From NCBI RefSeq assembly GCF_000015045.1, contig NC_008609.1, forward strand, positions 3,523,501 to 3,587,500: 64,000 nt of DNA, written 5' to 3'. Within the stretch, counting starts at the first letter, position 1. Every line of letters starts with the position of its first letter. The position numbers and the translations under genes are program-made. Below the pieces are notes generated by a model that saw only the letters and a program-made list of their open reading frames with translations, was not told the DNA's origin and ran no database searches. Source of the stretch: Pelobacter propionicus DSM 2379 (lineage in GTDB: Bacteria > Desulfobacterota > Desulfuromonadia > Geobacterales > Pseudopelobacteraceae). Positions 23,959-32,008 of the stretch are shown piece after piece.

Positions 23959-24981
23959 TCATTCAGATCCCGGGCTCGAAGTCGCCATGTCCACCGCCAT
24001 GGCTATGGCGGCCAGCATGCTGCGACTGGACGCCCTGCCGGTTCCCGCCAGGTCGTAGGCCGTGCCATGGTCCACCGAGGTGCGGATAATCGGCAGCCCC
24101 AGGGTGATGTTGACCCCGTCGTCGAAGTGCAGCAGTTTCAGCGGTATCAGCCCCTGGTCGTGGTACATGGCCACCACCCCGTCGTACTCCCCCTGGCGGG
24201 CGAAGTGGAAGAGGGTGTCGGCGGAAAGCGGCCCCCGGGCGTCGATCCCCTCGTCCCGCGCCGCCCGGATGGCAGGGGCGATGACGCTCGCCTCCTCGTC
24301 GCCGAACATGCCCCCCTCGCCGCAGTGGGGATTGAGGGCCAGCACCGCCAGGCGCGGGCGTTCCTTTCCGGTCAGGAGCCGAACCCCTTCATGGGTCACC
24401 CGGATGGTGGTCAGCACCCGCTCCCGGCTTATCAGGGAGGGGACATGGCGCAGCGCCTCGTGGATCGTCACCAGGCTGACCCGCAGCTGATCGCCGGCCA
24501 GCATCATCACGTAGCTGTCGGTGCCGCACAGTTCGGCCAGAAGTTCCGTATGCCCCGGATAATGGTGGCCGGCCCGGTTCATGGCCTCCTTGCTGATAGG
24601 CGCCGTGACCATGGCCGCCAGCCTGCCCTGGAGACAGAGCTCGGTGGCGCAGCGGATGTAGTCGTATACCGCGGTTCCGGCTGCCAGGCCAGGATGGCCA
24701 TAGCGCAGCTCATCTTCCGTCAAGCGGGACAGGGTCAGCAGGGGGATAGCACCGTTTTCAACCCGACGCGCCTCCTCCACCGATTCGACCACCCGGATTG
24801 GCAGAGCCGAGCCACAGACACGAACGGCACGCTCCAGCGCCGCCGGATCGCCGATCACCAGCGGCACGCAGTGCGCCCGGACCTGGGGGTCGGCCAGGGC
24901 GGTCACGATGATCTCCGGGCCGACCCCGCAGGGATCGCCCATGGTGATGCCGATCAACGGCCTGGCCGTGGAATCAGGCAT
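23959..24981 (-). CDS. pdxA: 4-hydroxythreonine-4-phosphate dehydrogenase (PdxA)
   Basis: NAD-dependent enzyme that oxidises and decarboxylates 4-phosphohydroxy-L-threonine in pyridoxal phosphate synthesis. The 340-residue product has the N-terminal GITMGDPCGVGPEI, metal-binding histidines in HYPGHTELL and AMYHDQGLIPLK, and a C-terminus DHGTAYDLAGTG, all typical of PdxA. The start at 24981 has GGAGGAGAG before it. The start overlaps the end of cbiG by 8 bases. Coupling to cobalamin genes is notable, as some PdxA-family members act on other C4 phosphates, so a role outside vitamin B6 cannot be excluded. Confidence 0.92.
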   Translation of the reverse strand: MPDSTARPLIGITMGDPCGVGPEIIVTALADPQVRAHCVPLVIGDPAALERAVRVCGSALPIRVVESVEEARRVENGAIPLLTLSRLTEDELRYGHPGLAAGTAVYDYIRCATELCLQGRLAAMVTAPISKEAMNRAGHHYPGHTELLAELCGTDSYVMMLAGDQLRVSLVTIHEALRHVPSLISRERVLTTIRVTHEGVRLLTGKERPRLAVLALNPHCGEGGMFGDEEASVIAPAIRAARDEGIDARGPLSADTLFHFARQGEYDGVVAMYHDQGLIPLKLLHFDDGVNITLGLPIIRTSVDHGTAYDLAGTGRASSRSMLAAIAMAVDMATSSPGSE

Positions 24982-26047
24982 GCTCTCCTCCGGGAATCTC
25001 CGCCACCGCCAGGGTGACGTTGGGGGATTTGACCTTCTGCAACAGCAGGCGCCCCCCGCCCGAAGCCAGGAGCGCAGCCGGCTCGGCCACGCCGATGGCG
25101 CCGATGGCGGCCATGGCATGCTTCGACGGTCGGGAGGGAACAGCCACACGGTTCAGCTCTTGACTGTCGTAGAAGCAGATCTCCAGGCCGTGGCGCTGGG
25201 CAAAGGCCAGAAGCCCCGGCTCATCGCGCTTAGCCGTGGCCGTGGCGATACGGAGGACGCTCTTCAGGGAGAGAAAGATGCGGCGCAGCTGGGTGGTGAC
25301 AAACTCGTCGATCTCCTCCAGGGGGGTGGTGCGGTTGCAACCAATGCCCAGCACCAGGTTGCGGGGGCGCAGGACCAGCAGGTTGTCCGGCCGGCTCTGG
25401 GGGGGGAGATGGCGGTTGGTGACAAAGAGGAAGCCGTGGGCGCTGCCTGCCAGGGCCTGGGAAAAGGTGTCGTGAAAGCTGAGTTTACCCCGGCCGTGGA
25501 ACCAGCTACGGGTCTGGCCGCCGTGATCCACCACGGCGATCTCCTCACCATCCAGCAGCAGCCTGTTCAGGGTCTTGACGCCGGAGAGGTTGTCGATCAG
25601 CCACCCCTGCTCCTTGGCCAGCATGTCGAAGGAGGGGAGCCGGTTCACATCGGTGGCGGTGGTGATCACCGGCCGGGCGCCGCTGATGAAGGCGCAGCGC
25701 TCGGCCAGCTCGTTGGCTCCCCCCAGATGGCCGGAGAGGAGGGAGATGGCGAAGGTGCCGGCATCGTCCATGACCACCACGGCCGGATCGCTTTCCTTTG
25801 ACTTCACAAGCGGCGCAATGGTGCGTACCACGATGCCGGTGGCCATGACACAGACCAGGGCGTCATGTTCCTGCCAGAGGGATGAAACCAGTTCCTTCAG
25901 GTCGGCGGGGTCGAAGGGCTTGGCAGGGGCTCCCCCCTGTCCGGCATAGCGCCGGGAGAGATGCAGCTCCGCACCGGCCAGCCCCTGCACCAGTTTCTGT
26001 CCCAGCAGGCCGCCATTGCGGGTTATGGCAATAACGGCCACACGCAT
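24974..26047 (-). CDS. cbiG: Cobalt-precorrin-5A hydrolase (CbiG)
   Basis: Opens the delta-lactone of cobalt-precorrin-5A, releasing acetaldehyde, in the anaerobic cobalamin pathway. The 357-residue protein has the CbiG N-terminal domain (MRVAVIAITRNG), the central signature LLSGHLGGANELAERC (about residues 100-115) followed by TTATDVNRLPSFDMLA, and the C-terminal domain with VLGIGCNRTTPLEEI. The start at 26047 lies one base after the cobM stop; an in-frame ATG 33 bases upstream would overlap cobM. It sits between cobM and pdxA. The remaining cobalamin genes are not in this window. Confidence 0.93.
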   Translation of the reverse strand: MRVAVIAITRNGGLLGQKLVQGLAGAELHLSRRYAGQGGAPAKPFDPADLKELVSSLWQEHDALVCVMATGIVVRTIAPLVKSKESDPAVVVMDDAGTFAISLLSGHLGGANELAERCAFISGARPVITTATDVNRLPSFDMLAKEQGWLIDNLSGVKTLNRLLLDGEEIAVVDHGGQTRSWFHGRGKLSFHDTFSQALAGSAHGFLFVTNRHLPPQSRPDNLLVLRPRNLVLGIGCNRTTPLEEIDEFVTTQLRRIFLSLKSVLRIATATAKRDEPGLLAFAQRHGLEICFYDSQELNRVAVPSRPSKHAMAAIGAIGVAEPAALLASGGGRLLLQKVKSPNVTLAVAEIPGGEHA

Positions 26048-26048
26048 G

Positions 26049-26825
26049 TCAGGCAACAACCCCGCGATAGCCATGGGCAAAACCGCCGTCGTACAGCAGC
26101 GACTTGGCTTTCAGCCCCTCGCGCCGCGCTGCCAGCACATCCCCCACCACGATCAGGGCCTGGCGGTCGATGCCTGCCTGGCGCACCAGGTCGGCGATAT
26201 CGGCCAGGGTCCCCTGGATGATCTGCTCATCCTCCCAGGAGGCGCGGCAGACGATGGCCGCCGGGGTCTCCGGCGTGTAAGCCCCCTCCAGGAGCTGTGC
26301 CACCACCTTCTCGATCATCCCCACCGAGAGGTAGATCACCATGGTGGCTCCCAGGCGGGCGATCTGGCCCAGCTGTTCCCGCTCCGGGACCGGCGTGCGC
26401 CCCTCCACGCGGGTGAAGATGACGGTCTGGGAGACCTCCGGCAGGGTCAGTTCCTGCTTCAGGGCGGCTGCGGCGGCAAAGGCACTGGTGACGCCGGGAA
26501 CCACCTGGTACTCCACCCCCATCCGGTCCAGCGCCTCCATCTGCTCCTGGATGGCCCCGTAGATGGCCGGGTCGCCGGTGTGCAGGCGGACCACGCTTTT
26601 GCCGCTTGCGATGGAATCCATCATCACGGTGATGACCTCGCTCAGGGTCATGCCGGCTGAATCGTAAATATCAGCCGTAACGGCATAGCGTTTGACTAGT
26701 TGCAGATCCACCAGGCTGCCGGCATAGATGATAACGTCGGCGTGGCGCAAGAGACGCGCCCCCCGGACGGTGATCAGGTCGGCTGCTCCGGGTCCCGCTC
26801 CGACGAATGAAACCTGTGGTGCCAT
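26049..26825 (-). CDS. cobM: Precorrin-4 C11-methyltransferase
   Basis: SAM-dependent tetrapyrrole methyltransferase (CobM/CbiF) that methylates C11 of (cobalt-)precorrin-4, the step before CbiG. The 258-residue sequence contains SFVGAGPGAADLITVRG at the N-terminus, HTGDPAIYGA near residue 83, VVPGVTSAFAAAAAL near 105, and CRASWEDE near 205. The start at 26825 gives the usual N-terminus MAPQVSFVGAGPG and has GGAGA upstream; the 18 codons before it are not family-like. CbiG next to it argues for the anaerobic (CbiF) reaction. No cobalamin riboswitch was recognised upstream. Confidence 0.94.
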   Translation of the reverse strand: MAPQVSFVGAGPGAADLITVRGARLLRHADVIIYAGSLVDLQLVKRYAVTADIYDSAGMTLSEVITVMMDSIASGKSVVRLHTGDPAIYGAIQEQMEALDRMGVEYQVVPGVTSAFAAAAALKQELTLPEVSQTVIFTRVEGRTPVPEREQLGQIARLGATMVIYLSVGMIEKVVAQLLEGAYTPETPAAIVCRASWEDEQIIQGTLADIADLVRQAGIDRQALIVVGDVLAARREGLKAKSLLYDGGFAHGYRGVVA

Positions 26826-27598
26826 GTATCTTCTCCGTGAAAAAATAATCGTTTCCGCCTGTAATCCAGCCGACGGCATTGGTTCTTGTAGTCCGAAACC
26901 GCCGGCATGTCAAGGCGATCGGTCCCGGGCTTGGCATCGGTCGAGCCGGTGAGCAATGATCTTCGGCCAGGACGGTATTTACGCGACTATCTCCTGCATT
27001 TGCAGATTGCTACCTTGATTGACGTATCAACCGTTTTCCCACCAGCGCGAATCTATACCGTCCTAAGTGCTGATTTTTGATGCTATTTTCAACCTGATGT
27101 GATACATGAACTTGATTCTGCTTCTAGGTGAACCACAGAAGTGAGAATGCAGATTACTGGAGTAGTACCGGCATCAGACTTCACCCGCGAGTCGGGCACG
27201 TGCCTGCCACTAATAACCCGATTTCATGACGCCTCACTACCTCCGCTTGCATGAAAGACTCTGACCTGGGCGTGTTCGGCGGCATGGGACGGTTCGGCGG
27301 AGACTCATCCGGACGGACAGTTGCAGCGTCGGTAGCGGCAGTGTGGCCCCGGCTCTTTCAGGCTCGCAGATCTCCGGCATCACGGATGCAGGACTCAGGA
27401 AAGAACGTGCGTTTACCCCCAGCACTCTCCCCCACAGCTGCTCTGTATGGAGTCATGAACATCGCGTCGTTTCACCGCAAACCCGGTCAACAAACAGGAA
27501 CCTGGCCAGAGGTCATGCTGTGCTATCATGCGCTTGTGGTATATGCATTTGCTGGTCATGTTCCCGAACCACCCAATTTACGTTCACGAGGAGGAGTT
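26826..27598. other. Long gene-free stretch between cobM and the OMP gene
   Basis: About 770 bases between divergent genes. The middle (roughly 26990-27140) is AT-richer. There is a GGCACGTGCC palindrome near 27196. The OMP frame is open back to 27251, but those 116 codons lack protein-like character and precede a clear AGGAGG and signal peptide. I looked for a cobalamin riboswitch on the minus strand and saw no B12-box-like element. Confidence 0.5.
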
Positions 27599-28291
27599 AT
27601 GAAAATGAATTTTATCGGATTGGTCGTGCTTGGATTAATCGCCCTGGCAGTCCCCTCACTGGCTGCGGACAATGCACCGCATAACTGGACAGGATTTTAT
27701 GCCGGCATAAACGGCGGTTACGGCTGGGGCGAAACACAGTGGGATTATGTCGGCTCAACGGGAAAGGCAGACCACCATATCAACGGGGGGCTGATCGGGG
27801 GAACCATGGGGGCAAACTTGCAGTTTTTTGCCTATCAGGGTGGAATACCCGCTGTCGTGGGGGGGGTTGAGTCCGATTTCGACTGGGCGGACCTGGGTGA
27901 CGACGGCCCCTGTCCCAACCCCCGTTTCCGCGCCAAATCGAGCATTGATGCCTTGGCAACCGTGCGCGGTCGCCTGGGGCTTGCCTTCGACCGTCTCTTT
28001 ATCTTCGGCACTGGTGGTCTTGCAGTGGCCAAAACAGATGTCGAGACTGTCGATACATGGGGTACGTCCGTCCCTCCGAGCGGGACCGCGAAAAACGGCG
28101 AAGGCAAGTGGAAGACCGGGTATGTGGTGGGTGTTGGCGCCGAATATGCCGTCTGGAAGAACCTTTCGTTCAAGGTCGAGTACCAGTATTATGACCTGGG
28201 CAGGAGCACGTACCGTGTCGACAACGATATCCCGGTCAAGGCCGGTGTGCGCGGCGACATTATCCGTACCGGTATCAACTATACATTCTGA
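27599..28291 (+). CDS. Outer-membrane beta-barrel protein
   Basis: A 230-residue Omp25/Omp31-like eight-strand barrel protein (PF13505 type). It has a signal peptide with cleavage after SLAAD or so, then NWTGFYAGINGGYGWGE, the classic first strand of this family. Alternating glycine and aromatic strands and the terminal GINYTF, ending in Phe, suit BAM recognition. GAGGAGG lies 5 bases before the ATG. It is a single-gene unit closed by a strong terminator at 28316-28345. The function is probably structural or adhesive; it cannot be made more specific. Confidence 0.88.
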   Translation: MKMNFIGLVVLGLIALAVPSLAADNAPHNWTGFYAGINGGYGWGETQWDYVGSTGKADHHINGGLIGGTMGANLQFFAYQGGIPAVVGGVESDFDWADLGDDGPCPNPRFRAKSSIDALATVRGRLGLAFDRLFIFGTGGLAVAKTDVETVDTWGTSVPPSGTAKNGEGKWKTGYVVGVGAEYAVWKNLSFKVEYQYYDLGRSTYRVDNDIPVKAGVRGDIIRTGINYTF

Positions 28292-28315: not shown

Positions 28316-28345
28316 GAAAAGCCCCGCGGCAGTGCGGGGCTTTTC
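28316..28345 (+). terminator. Rho-independent terminator after the OMP gene
   Basis: GCCCCGC/GCGGGGC stem (28321-28340) with a 6-base loop, preceded by AAAA and followed by TTTTCTC. Confidence 0.88.
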
Positions 28346-28615: not shown

Positions 28616-28643
28616 TTGACAAATACCCAAATCGTATTAAGAT
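28616..28643 (+). promoter_or_regulatory. Candidate sigma-70 promoter of the 24-codon leader
   Basis: A perfect TTGACA (28616-28621) and TAAGAT (28638-28643) are separated by 16 bases. The leader ATG follows at 28689. This is the best-looking -35 in the window. Confidence 0.6.
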
Positions 28644-28688
28644 AAAAACCATCCTGTTACACCTCAATCAACGAAAGGAGACCCGAAC

Positions 28689-28763
28689 ATGTGGACTGCA
28701 CACTTTAGGATTCGCCCGGTATCCCACTGCAAAGAGGGTTGCCATAGCTGGCCCGCCGCATGA
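28689..28763 (+). CDS. 24-residue peptide, candidate leader of the efflux operon
   Basis: A short ORF beginning MWTAHFRIRPVSHCKEG and ending SWPAA. It has AAAGGAGA 8 bases before the ATG and a good promoter 46 bases further upstream, and is followed by two hairpins, the second a T-run terminator. The Arg-Ile-Arg at residues 7-9 resembles the Arg/Lys-x-Arg/Lys motif at which macrolide-bound ribosomes arrest on leader peptides such as ErmDL. The next gene cluster is a MacAB-type exporter. Alternatives are a stand-alone small protein or a chance frame. I know of no named homologue. Confidence 0.5.
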   Translation: MWTAHFRIRPVSHCKEGCHSWPAA

Positions 28764-28818
28764 CCGCGGCGGGCGTTCCCGGAAAAGCCCCGGTCCTTGG
28801 ACATGGGGCTTTTTTTTT
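28751..28818 (+). terminator. Tandem hairpins with T-run, possible attenuator
   Basis: Hairpin 1 pairs GCCCGCCGC (28751-28759) with GCGGCGGGC (28766-28774), with the leader stop codon in its loop. Hairpin 2 pairs AAAGCCCC with GGGGCTTT (about 28784-28812) and runs into a T-run to about 28818, an intrinsic terminator. CGCCCG at leader codons 9-10 (28713-28718) can pair with CGGGCG in the 3' arm of hairpin 1 (28770-28775), offering an alternative fold. The unit lies 57 bases ahead of the MacA-like gene. Confidence 0.65.
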
Positions 28819-28874
28819 GAAACTTTTCTGTTATCATCCCCGTCTGCACTGGAGAGCCACGGGAGAGACATTCC

Positions 28875-30092
28875 ATGAGAAAAACCGCGCTGATAGCCCT
28901 AGCGCTCCTGCTGGTAGCGGGAATCGCCATTTCCACCTACCTGAGACGGGCGCCGGAAATCACCTACAGGACCGCCAGAATCCAACGGGGCACCATCGTC
29001 TCCGGCGTCTCCGCCACCGGAAACGTCAGCGCCGTGACCACGGTCCAGGTGGGAACCCAGGTTTCCGGCACGATCCACAAGCTGTACGTGGACTACAACT
29101 CCCCGGTCAAAAAGGGGCAGCCCATCGCGGAGATCGACCCCTCCCTGTTCAGGGCGGCGGTGGAGCAGTCCCGGGGCAACAATCTGGTTGCCAGGGCCAA
29201 CCTGCAGAAGGCCAGGGTAGTGCTGGTGGACGCCGAGCGTACCATGAAACGCAACAGCACGCTCCTGAAGGAGGGGGTCATCTCCCAGGGTGATTTCGAC
29301 ACGGCGGAAACCGCCTACCAGTCAGCCAGGGCGGCGGTGGAGGCGGCCCAGGGGACGGTGGCCCAGACAGAGGGGGCGCTCATGCAGGCCCGCACCAACC
29401 TGAACTACTCCATCATCCGCTCGCCGGTGGACGGCATCGTCATCTCCCGGGCAGTGGACGTGGGCCAGACCGTGGCGGCCTCCTTCCAGACCCCCACCCT
29501 CTTCACCATCGCTCAGGACCTGACCAAGATGCAGATCGAGGTCAGCGTTGACGAGGCGGACATAAGCAGCATTAGGCAGAGCCAGACTGTGACCTTCAGC
29601 GTCGACTCCTACCCGGAGCAATCCTTCAGGGGGAGGGTGACCCAGATCCGCAACGCGCCGATCATCACCCAGAACGTGGTCACCTATGTGGTTCTGGTAA
29701 CCGTGGACAACAGCGACCTGAAGCTGAAACCGGGCATGACCGCCAACGTGACCATCGAGGTGGCCCGCAAGGCTTCCGTGCTCAGGCTTCCCCTGGCCGC
29801 CCTGCGCTTCAGGCCCAGGTCCGCGACGGACGCGGGCACGACTCCGCGGCCCAGGAACAGCACCGCCACCCGCCCTCCCCAGCAGGCCACAGGCGAGCAG
29901 CGGGTCCACATCCTCAGGGAGGGCAAGCCGGTGGCAATCGGCATCAGGACCGGCATCGCCGACGACAGCGCCATCGAGCTGACCGGAGGAGCGCTCAAAG
30001 AGGGGGATCTGGTCGTCATCGAACAGATCGGCGGCACCGGAAAGAAGAAGGCCAACGCAGCGGGCGGTTCCCCCATGGGTCCGCGCTTCTAG
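28875..30092 (+). CDS. macA: MacA-like periplasmic adaptor of an efflux transporter
   Basis: A 405-residue HlyD/MacA-type membrane fusion protein. It has an N-terminal signal-anchor (residues 1-22), a split biotinyl-lipoyl domain (VQVGTQVSGTIHKL; later RSPVDGIVISRAVDVGQTV), an alpha-hairpin coiled coil between them (about 95-170), a beta-barrel domain and a membrane-proximal domain. A Pro/Thr/Arg-rich insertion around residues 315-340 is not typical. It links the inner-membrane MacB-type ABC transporter to a TolC-like channel. No tolC gene is present. It lies 57 bases after the putative attenuator and 2 bases before the ATPase gene. The substrate is unknown; the macA name indicates family only. 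Confidence 0.87.
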   Translation: MRKTALIALALLLVAGIAISTYLRRAPEITYRTARIQRGTIVSGVSATGNVSAVTTVQVGTQVSGTIHKLYVDYNSPVKKGQPIAEIDPSLFRAAVEQSRGNNLVARANLQKARVVLVDAERTMKRNSTLLKEGVISQGDFDTAETAYQSARAAVEAAQGTVAQTEGALMQARTNLNYSIIRSPVDGIVISRAVDVGQTVAASFQTPTLFTIAQDLTKMQIEVSVDEADISSIRQSQTVTFSVDSYPEQSFRGRVTQIRNAPIITQNVVTYVVLVTVDNSDLKLKPGMTANVTIEVARKASVLRLPLAALRFRPRSATDAGTTPRPRNSTATRPPQQATGEQRVHILREGKPVAIGIRTGIADDSAIELTGGALKEGDLVVIEQIGGTGKKKANAAGGSPMGPRF

Positions 30093-30094
30093 CC

Positions 30095-30778
30095 ATGGCA
30101 GAGGTCATCTCGCTCAGCGACATACGCCGCGTCTTCATCATGGGGGAGCAGCAGTTCGAGGCGCTCAGGGGGATCTCCTTCTCCATCGCCGCCGGGGAGT
30201 TCGTGGCCATCATGGGCGCATCGGGCAGCGGAAAATCCACCTGCATGAACATCCTGGGCTGCCTGGACCTCCCCACCAGCGGCACCTACCTCTTGGACGG
30301 TCTGGACGTGGGGAGCATGGACGCTAACCGGCTGGCCGGCATCCGCAACCGCAAGCTCGGCTTCGTGTTCCAAGGGTTCAACCTGCTTCCCCGCACGCCG
30401 GCCGTTGAAAACGTGGAACTCCCCCTGGTCTATGCCGGCGTTTCCTCCCGGGAGCGGCGGGCGCGGGCCCTGGCGGCGCTGGAGCAGGTGGGGCTGGCCG
30501 GCAAGGAGAACAACCACCCCAGCCAGCTCTCCGGCGGCCAGCAGCAGCGCATCGCCATTGCCCGGGCCCTGGTCAACGATCCGGCGGTGATCCTGGCGGA
30601 CGAGCCCACCGGCAACCTGGACAGCGTCACCACCGAAGAGATCATGAGGCTCTTCACCGACCTGAACCGGCAGGGGATCACCATCATTATGGTCACCCAC
30701 GAGAGCGACGTGGCCGCCCATGCTGGCCGCAGGATAACCTTCCGTGACGGCAGGATCATCGCCGATACGAGGGGCTAG
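30095..30778 (+). CDS. MacB/LolD-type ABC transporter ATPase
   Basis: A 227-residue stand-alone ABC ATPase of the MacB/LolD/FtsE class. Walker A is GASGSGKST (about 43-51), the signature is LSGGQQQRIAIARAL, and Walker B is VILADEPTGNLDS. The PTGNLD sequence is diagnostic of this class. The ATPase and permease are separate proteins here, unlike the fused E. coli MacB. It starts 2 bases after the adaptor gene and ends 3 bases before the permease gene. Confidence 0.93.
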   Translation: MAEVISLSDIRRVFIMGEQQFEALRGISFSIAAGEFVAIMGASGSGKSTCMNILGCLDLPTSGTYLLDGLDVGSMDANRLAGIRNRKLGFVFQGFNLLPRTPAVENVELPLVYAGVSSRERRARALAALEQVGLAGKENNHPSQLSGGQQQRIAIARALVNDPAVILADEPTGNLDSVTTEEIMRLFTDLNRQGITIIMVTHESDVAAHAGRRITFRDGRIIADTRG

Positions 30779-30781
30779 TGC

Positions 30782-32008
30782 ATGAACTTCCCCCAAACCC
30801 TGAGAATAGCCCTGAGGGCGTTGCGCACCAACAAGATGCGCTCATTTTTGACCATGCTCGGCATCATCATCGGCATCGCCGCCGTAATCGCCATGATGGC
30901 CGTGGGGTCGGGGGCCAGCTACGTCATTTCCCAGCAGATCGCCAGCATCGGCAGCAACATCATCCTGGTCATCCCCGGCTCCACCACCAGCGGTGGCCTG
31001 CGCAGCGGCAGCGGCGGAGCCCAGAGCCTGACCAGCGACGACGCCAAAGCCATCATCAACGAATGTCCCTCGGTGGAGACCGCCGCTCCCACGGTGCGCA
31101 GCTCCGGCCTGGTGGTCTACGGCAACATGAACTGGTCGACCATCATCATGGGCGCCTCCCCGGAACTGTTCGACATCCGCGAATGGTGGACCAGCAGCGG
31201 TCGCGGCATCACCCGGCAGGACGTGGACGGCGCCGCCAAGGTCTGCCTGCTGGGTCAGACGGTGGCCGACAACCTGTTCGGCTCCGACGATCCCTTGGGC
31301 AAGATCGTGCGCATCAAGAAGATCCCTTTCACGGTGGTGGGCGTCCTGGAACGCAAGGGGCAGTCGCCCCAGGGGACCGACCAGGACGACACCGTCTTCG
31401 TCCCGCTGCGCACGGCCCAACGCAACCTGGTTCGCTCCCCCTTTCCCAACACGGTGGGGGCGCTGCTGGTCAAGGCCAAGAGCGAGGATCTGCTGGAGCA
31501 GGCCGAAGAGGAGGTTAACAGCCTGCTCAACCAGCGCCACCGCATCACCGGCGCCAAGGAACCTGACTTCTCCACCCGCAACCTGTCAGAAATCCTGGCA
31601 GTGGCCGAGCAGTCGTCGCGGGCCATGTCGCTGCTCCTGGGTACGGTGGCCTCCATCTCCCTGGTGGTGGGAGGGATCGGCATCATGAACATCATGCTGG
31701 TCTCGGTAACGGAACGGACACGGGAGATCGGCATCCGCATGGCCATCGGCGCCAGAAAGAGCGATATCCTGCTGCAGTTCATGACCGAGGCGGTACTTCT
31801 GACCATGATCGGCGGCATCGTCGGCATCATGCTGGGCGCCGGCGGGGCCATGGTCGTCTCGCGCATCCTCTCCTGGCCCACGCTGATCTCCACCGGCTCC
31901 ATCACCGTCGCCTTCCTCTTCTCGGGAGCCGTGGGGATCTTCTTCGGCTTCTACCCGGCCAGGAAGGCGGCCGGACTCAACCCCATCGAGGCACTCAGGT
32001 ATGAATAG
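30782..32008 (+). CDS. MacB-type ABC transporter permease
   Basis: A 408-residue type VII ABC permease. It has an N-terminal helix (FLTMLGIIIGIAAVIAMMAVG, from residue 22), a large periplasmic MacB core domain (about 45-270), and three C-terminal helices in an FtsX domain (GGIGIMNIMLVSVTERTREIG from about 298). It completes a split MacAB-type tripartite exporter. The stop overlaps the next gene, a thioesterase, by 8 bases. Confidence 0.93.
   Translation: MNFPQTLRIALRALRTNKMRSFLTMLGIIIGIAAVIAMMAVGSGASYVISQQIASIGSNIILVIPGSTTSGGLRSGSGGAQSLTSDDAKAIINECPSVETAAPTVRSSGLVVYGNMNWSTIIMGASPELFDIREWWTSSGRGITRQDVDGAAKVCLLGQTVADNLFGSDDPLGKIVRIKKIPFTVVGVLERKGQSPQGTDQDDTVFVPLRTAQRNLVRSPFPNTVGALLVKAKSEDLLEQAEEEVNSLLNQRHRITGAKEPDFSTRNLSEILAVAEQSSRAMSLLLGTVASISLVVGGIGIMNIMLVSVTERTREIGIRMAIGARKSDILLQFMTEAVLLTMIGGIVGIMLGAGGAMVVSRILSWPTLISTGSITVAFLFSGAVGIFFGFYPARKAAGLNPIEALRYE

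Follow-up and report, generated by a model that had tools for sequence, protein, structure and literature searches.

A 24-codon open reading frame, followed by a hairpin and an intrinsic terminator, lies upstream of a MacAB-like operon in Pelobacter propionicus DSM 2379, and raises the question of what so short a leader might sense and whether it acts on the exporter genes beside it. A first-pass annotation had proposed a macrolide-sensing attenuator of macAB. The window, the whole stretch of DNA analysed here, is 64,000 nucleotides long (contig NC_008609.1, positions 3,523,501 to 3,587,500, forward strand), and coordinates below are positions within it.

The leader cassette and the MacAB-like operon

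The promoter, the strong ribosome binding site, the 24-codon ORF, the GC hairpin across its stop codon and the terminator are all present where the first-pass annotation had placed them, and residues 7-9 of the peptide are indeed Arg-Ile-Arg. The features of the locus are as follows.

28616..28643, + strand: sigma-70-type promoter TTGACA-N16-TAAGAT, from a promoter scan
28639..28655, no strand assigned: imperfect dyad AAGAT..ATCCT over the -10 and transcription start, an inferred possible operator
28674..28681, + strand: Shine-Dalgarno sequence AAAGGAGA
28689..28763, + strand: leader peptide ORF MWTAHFRIRPVSHCKEGCHSWPAA, 24 codons plus TGA stop, ATG at 28689
28701..28742, + strand: conserved 14-residue peptide core HFRIRPVSHCKEGC
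28743..28750, + strand: 8-nt spacer between the last core codon and the RNA structure
28751..28774, + strand: GC hairpin, in the place held by a pseudoknot in other phyla
28784..28818, + strand: intrinsic terminator, stem 28784-28812, run of nine T to 28818, -16.5 kcal/mol
28828..28837, + strand: extended -10-like element CTGTTATCAT (TGTTATCAT at 28829-28837), a possible macA promoter
28875..30092, + strand: MacA-like periplasmic adaptor (NCBIfam MacA 181 bits, cut-off 342; RND_mfp subfamily 164 bits, cut-off 94.9)
30095..30778, + strand: MacB-like ATPase (MacB 273.5 bits, below the cut-off of 966 of the full-length model)
30782..32008, + strand: MacB-like permease (MacB 298.5 bits, below cut-off)

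The three genes of the operon thus have MacA and MacB as their best NCBIfam matches, all under the equivalog cut-offs, and the adaptor matches the RND_mfp subfamily above its cut-off. The GC hairpin has 9 bp over the stop codon (arms 28751-28759 and 28766-28774; -22.6 kcal/mol), and the local fold of 28650-28830 is better than 200 of 200 shuffles (z -2.6). Across 1.5 kb the scan returned one promoter-like site where shuffles predict 0.4, and two terminator-like sites, a number not above the 1.5 expected from shuffles. A separate terminator-like sequence, AAAAGCCCCGC..GCGGGGCTTTT, is present at 28318-28345 after an outer-membrane-type reading frame ending at 28291, and minus-strand ORFs at 23959-26879 are, from their translations, presumably related to pdxA, cbiG and cobM/cbiF.

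These signals recur among the 204 loci compared, 80 of which carry a Geobacterales-type core. A TTGAC-N16-19-TA...T match lies 5' of the ORF in 70/80 Geobacterales-type loci (11/1600 shuffles) and in 42 of the 124 others; a Shine-Dalgarno-like match is found in 79/80 and 116/124 respectively, and a run of five or more T occurs 24-110 nt past the core in 74 of the 80. By eye, a fuller dyad, AGGATAA..TTATCCT, covers the -10 and start in some Geobacterales loci (e.g. L025), and others have AAAAAGACC-n-GGTCTTTTT-like repeats 5' of the -35. These dyads and upstream repeats are possible candidates for regulator operators at the Geobacterales leader promoters.

A widespread family of short Cys/His peptides

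On its sequence, the window ORF is a member of a widespread family of short Cys/His leader peptides, mostly 16-27 residues in length, with a core consensus of approximately [RKH][FYW][MR][LI]RPV[AST]HC[KS]EG[CH] and variable tails after the core. Members are found in the Geobacterales and their phylum, in Bacillota, in Omnitrophota and elsewhere, sometimes with several copies in a genome; at E<1e-4 one is present in 53 of a set of 57 genomes made up of the window's and those of relatives. A DNA-pattern scan of named genomes returned at least 118 stretches (80 listed), many of them from MAGs, with records from Geomonas, Trichlorobacter, Oryzomonas, Pelotalea, Omnitrophota, Selenomonadales, Thermoanaerobacteraceae and others. 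Profile searches found the peptide in 35/345 genomes of the window's phylum (E<=0.01), in 34/199 genomes (E<=0.001; 28/149 in an overlapping draw) of the phylum of a Thermoanaerobacteraceae MAG (Bacillota), and in 45/145 (E<=0.001) of the phylum of an Omnitrophota MAG; a decoy profile of reversed peptides found none in 141 genomes of the last phylum at the same threshold. The phylum of a Spirochaetes MAG yielded 4/100, two of them weak (E ~1e-4, with cores ending in S or A). A mobile-element origin was considered and dropped: a search of 72,556 plasmid and 50,697 phage records with one 20-residue peptide gave nothing at E<=1.

The core is conserved as protein. Because the DNA scan pattern fixes PV-S/T (or similar)-HCKEGC, core conservation among the loci that it selected (L031-L148) is partly by construction, and codon-position counts were redone on the 135 loci not picked by DNA pattern; in residues 5-14 of the core, the first, second and third codon positions differ in 0.188, 0.158 and 0.571 of comparisons. 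Residue 10 is Cys in all 203 scored loci, His9 is kept in 199 and Gly13 in 202, and the last core residue is C in 187, H in 11, S in three and A in two, so that the HCxxxC/H pattern is nearly invariant; metal binding is a prediction from it. Exchange of C for H at the last position fits metal coordination and speaks against a disulfide. The loci were de-duplicated on 80 nt only, such that related genomes still weigh in, and ORF calling was mechanical.

A short Cys-containing peptide that is sometimes multicopy could also be the precursor of a RiPP or signalling peptide, with HCxEGC as its core and the remainder as its leader. This is very improbable given that the last Cys is replaceable by His, that the neighbour families listed include no common maturase, and that the peptide is held in a conserved register with an RNA structure.

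An RNA structure in fixed register with the core

The RNA following the core is conserved in a different way. Among the 124 loci without a Geobacterales-type core, 95 fit the pattern [GUC]CY[GGGCA]N[GAC]nnUAAAC[UGCCC], an H-type pseudoknot, and Geobacterales have a plain GC hairpin in its place; the other 29 comprise 16 with a hairpin of the Geobacterales kind and 13 in which the spacing is altered, the structure is incomplete or no structure could be recognised. In a gapless alignment of 89 of the 95 candidates (86 distinct rows; six dropped for indels, an inserted hairpin or shifted columns), pairing is preserved in 96.7% of 688 cells and in 28-45% for slid controls, with compensatory changes on both sides in six of the eight pseudoknot pairs. 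An earlier gapless alignment, of 59 of 65 candidates (three near-duplicates and three with indels dropped), gave 96.0% of 472 cells. All 80 Geobacterales-type loci lie outside both alignments. Stem 1 is GUC/GAC, with GCC/GGC in three rows and CUC/GAG in three. The region shows no coding periodicity, codon positions differing in 0.383, 0.325 and 0.295 of comparisons (108 loci).

Three side observations concern this region. L292, outside the alignment, appears by eye to have a long hairpin inserted in loop 3, with the stem-2 arm after the insert. The spacer often begins NNTAG or NNTAT (e.g. CCTAG, AGTAT); pairing of its UAG/UAU with loop 3 was considered and dropped as inconsistent by eye. In L249 (G440:C28) a pseudoknot match lies just after a reading frame, and the 110 nt upstream contain no core peptide.

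The structure begins exactly 8 nt past the core in 64/78 pseudoknot-class and 81/96 hairpin-class loci, and in 113 of the 135 unselected loci; the window, with its core ending at 28742 and its hairpin starting at 28751, fits this register. The stop codon moves freely by comparison, the first in-frame stop past the core falling at offset 0 (26 loci), 6 (77), 18 (57), 24 (30) or elsewhere (13; n=203). The register is tied to the last core codon and not to the stop codon, and two unlike structures, pseudoknot and plain hairpin, occupy one position relative to the core. The association also holds in the other direction: of the 36 sites picked out by a pseudoknot model across 199 Bacillota genomes, 33 are at peptide matches and three lie away from any (G440:C28, G463:C3 and G491:C20). 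The chief reason to favour a ribosome-mediated mechanism is that a protein-level and an RNA-level signal are locked at a distance suited to a ribosome whose P site is occupied by the last core codon.

For a ribosome so positioned the structure begins 5 nt past the A-site codon, much as in recoding stimulators, and both shifted frames are open by eye across the consensus pseudoknot; the cassette might on these grounds be a programmed frameshift or readthrough site. Yet the wobble positions in the core are variable, which leaves no fixed slippery sequence; downstream genes in the Omnitrophota-type set described below share no single frame with respect to the core; and a standalone locus has no gene with which it could be fused. 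We regard recoding as highly improbable.

Linkage to macA and the macrolide hypothesis

Family-wide association with MacAB is not supported, since a macA homologue follows in only 49/204 loci, 47 of them among the 80 with a Geobacterales-type core. Of the 49 macA-linked loci 27, that of the window among them, have an element matching TGnTAT[GC]AT 55-150 nt past the core, compared with 6/155 others and 3/980 shuffles, and in the printed macA-linked sequences it is placed 3' of the U-run. With an extended -10-like element after the U-run, macA in these 27 loci need not depend on read-through, and in the lineage carrying the element macA probably has its own promoter, as judged from the motif and its position. 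The element is missing from 22 of the 49, about half of which are Trichlorobacter-like; near variants such as TGCTATTAT were seen by eye in several of those that are not. In the Trichlorobacter-like clade the element is absent and macA starts ~20 nt past the U-run, an arrangement in which attenuation of macA by the terminator is possible. The earlier proposal of terminator read-through into macA therefore retains a possible place in that clade, and is countered by the promoter-like element in the 27.

Macrolide sensing fares worse. The Arg-Ile-Arg of the window peptide, the linkage to macA in Geobacterales-type loci and the terminator between leader and macA all agree with a macrolide-sensing attenuator of macAB, as the first-pass annotation had it. 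Against this, the +x+ motif is lineage-specific, with 78/95 Geobacterales-type loci carrying it and 0/108 of the remainder; most loci are without macA; and a promoter-like element stands between terminator and macA in 27 of 49. The annotation had further noted that the Arg-9 and Pro-10 codons are complementary to the 3' arm of the hairpin, and suggested that a stalled ribosome could change the fold. The complementarity of CGCCCG at 28713 to CGGGCG at 28770 is real, but when the reverse complement was sought in the 40 nt after the core of the 80 Geobacterales-type loci it was retained in only four. We consider a macrolide-sensing attenuator extremely improbable. What survives comparison with relatives is the leader-type reading itself: the peptide is strongly conserved, as is the RNA structure behind it, and Geobacterales have a terminator as well. 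The RIR-type motif and macA linkage do not characterise the family as a whole.

Neighbouring genes and promoter operators

Of 174 unique loci, 111 have their next downstream ORF on the same strand and 53 on the opposite strand; the other 10 have none. With so many standalone-looking loci, control of a neighbour in cis is not a general property, and the product may act in trans. Loci L270-L302, the Omnitrophota-type set, are more uniform: of these 33, among which four come from the Spirochaetes MAG's phylum, 32 have a same-strand downstream ORF, and Rrf2 regulators make up 16 of 30 such genes. By tblastn, an rrf2 start lies 74-170 nt past the core start on the same strand in 21/204 loci, and hcp (prismane) is found further on in eight of these; in one additional locus, L038, hcp comes immediately after the cassette. 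The end of the pseudoknot is 11 nt from the rrf2 ATG in L275 and 8 nt in L290; this closeness, with no Shine-Dalgarno sequence visible, suggests translational coupling.

Neighbour families were tallied with Pfam, each tally listing at most 25 families. The 68 downstream same-strand genes include HMA (4), CusB-like HlyD (4), Rrf2 (4), ferritin (3), P-type ATPase (3) and hemerythrin (3), and the 30 downstream genes of the Omnitrophota-type set include one each of desulfoferrodoxin, flavodiiron-type domains, rubrerythrin and YHS, together with two cellulases and three methyltransferases. Upstream, the 81 same-strand genes include a DUF362 iron-sulfur protein (12), Metal_resist (4) and YHS (3), and the 27 of the Omnitrophota-type set a CitMHS/ArsB-type permease (4), YHS (2) and prismane (1). 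The DUF362 4Fe-4S gene ends ~110-130 nt before the core in the Geobacterales loci L034, L083 and L152. Among 98 distant control genes from the same loci HMA and prismane each occur twice, and Rrf2 is missing from the families listed, each of which has at least two members. The two prismane genes may belong to rrf2-hcp operons. Rrf2 is clearly enriched downstream and HMA weakly so (4/68 vs 2/98). The neighbour families are mixed and many are unconnected with stress, and loci that are orthologous do not count as independent.

CsoR-like TACC..GGTA operators were observed at the mini-gene promoter in seven Bacillota loci (L198, L203, L208, L210, L211, L212 and L219). The pattern, chosen after reading the sequences, matches 7/40 Bacillota loci vs 25/1268 control windows; a second pattern matches 8/40 vs 10/1268, and the first, stricter one 3/40 vs 3/1268. 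Outside Bacillota the CsoR-like pattern occurs in 3/134 loci, against 60/7377 in controls. Being post hoc and not general, the pattern gives only a hint of CsoR control.

Six of the seven CsoR-operator loci precede an opposite-strand ORF, and they belong with the main rival to a leader function, namely that the product is a stress-induced standalone micropeptide which binds metal through His-Cys-x-x-Gly-Cys/His or acts in trans, the RNA serving only its expression or 3' end. The 53 of 174 loci with an opposite-strand ORF next downstream, the promoter-like match of its own in 70/80 Geobacterales-type loci and the Cys/His exchange at the last core residue are all in keeping with such a peptide, and nothing speaks more strongly against a role in cis alone than the standalone copies. 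A released peptide alone, however, leaves the fixed 8-nt register between core and structure unexplained; the tails after the core vary and the stop positions differ, and the Omnitrophota cassette sits close in front of rrf2. We judge a standalone micropeptide unlikely, though it has to be weighed seriously.

A model for ribosome-mediated regulation

We consider it on balance probable that the family is a leader-peptide cassette acting through the ribosome, with nascent peptide and RNA roadblock forming a switch. A ribosome translating the mini-ORF would come to the final codon of the core, which encodes Cys or in certain lineages His, and at that point its leading edge would meet the stable RNA structure starting 8 nt on. 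The nascent peptide in the exit tunnel and the roadblock would jointly set whether the ribosome pauses or progresses, and downstream expression would depend on the outcome, coupled at translation to rrf2 in Omnitrophota and in other groups governed by read-through of the terminator or by the fate of the mRNA. A peptide that senses metal or thiol/NO-type stress is suggested by its invariant Cys, the His next to it and the Cys/His at the end of the core. What the sequences show is conservation at the peptide and RNA levels, the fixed register and the neighbours; the pause, its reliance on the nascent peptide, the ligand and the way in which expression responds are inferred.

The cassette is probably metal- or thiol/NO-responsive rather than an antibiotic sensor. 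This inducer is the weakest step of the model, its basis being the His-Cys/Cys-His pattern, the neighbours and the CsoR-like operators at 7/40 Bacillota loci. With 16-27 residues the chain would barely protrude from the tunnel, so that any ligand would have to be bound within it. Further evidence against the model comes from the five loci whose core ends in S or A and the 13 without a standard structure, and cis control in the window itself is called into question by the extended -10-like element, which may drive macA separately.

A broader possibility, which we advance tentatively, is that of a phylum-spanning riboregulator, in which a micropeptide of ~18 residues would bind metal or react with NO or thiol stress inside the ribosome and, with a pseudoknot registered to its last Cys/His codon, control redox, NO and metal-stress genes including rrf2-hcp.

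If the ribosome-mediated model is correct, a widespread leader-peptide family joins the few known that are metal- or stress-responsive, and points to a chromosomal regulator common to Geobacterales, Bacillota and uncultured Omnitrophota. A regulator whose gene has mostly 16-27 codons is easily missed. The joint signature of a protein-level core, a fixed 8-nt gap and an RNA-level pseudoknot is unusual, and makes ribosome coupling directly testable.

Comparison with known systems

Neither part of the cassette was assigned to a known family. Three of the peptides had no Pfam or NCBIfam match at E<=1, and in a comparison of the window and 29 loci with Rfam 15 no cassette scored at gathering threshold (only two tRNAs, in L071), the sub-threshold matches in the region giving 14.7-18.1 bits vs cut-offs of 39-80. 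Literature searches with exact core strings returned no paper, and none of the titles or abstract openings retrieved by topic describes the peptide family.

Several types of regulator resemble it in part. Macrolide leaders of the ErmDL type have a short leader peptide with a +x+ motif and hairpins. The present family has the short peptide and hairpins, with +x+ in its Geobacterales members, but the motif is not family-wide and the structure is registered to a codon nine residues further on. TrpL-type amino-acid attenuators combine a leader peptide, hairpins and a terminator with a run of one amino-acid codon. Leader peptide, hairpins and terminator are all present in Geobacterales; unlike TrpL, the structure is in fixed register and the peptide sequence is conserved, and no run of one amino-acid codon was found in the peptide alignments. 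The preQ1-I riboswitch is a small, compact H-type pseudoknot with an A-containing loop 3. The pseudoknot described here shares its compactness and A-containing loop 3, but differs in lacking an Rfam match, in being substituted by a plain hairpin in Geobacterales and in being tied to a peptide core.

The nearest described systems found are the copper-sensing upstream ORFs CutF and CruR, as far as the portions of the two accounts drawn on here describe them. CutF of Rhodobacter capsulatus is encoded by an upstream ORF and has a CxxxC copper-binding motif and a stalling-like C terminus, and an mRNA stem-loop controls the next gene; CutF-like proteins often precede heavy-metal detoxification genes (PMC9973294). 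CutF is exported, with a signal sequence, a mature part of 90 residues and a proline-rich C terminus (PMC9973294), whereas the present peptide is mostly 16-27 residues long, has no signal sequence or proline-rich end and is followed by an RNA structure 8 nt past its core. CruR, a DUF2946 protein of Bordetella, is the product of a uORF that senses copper through Cys residues (CxxC) by translation arrest; it has 145 residues and a RAPP arrest motif, and acts through Rho-dependent termination (PMC9426467). The three present peptides compared with Pfam have no match, DUF2946 included, and no RAPP motif is found. On these partial accounts CutF and CruR are larger exported proteins with other arrest motifs, which places the present family outside both; in its working principle it may be similar to them.
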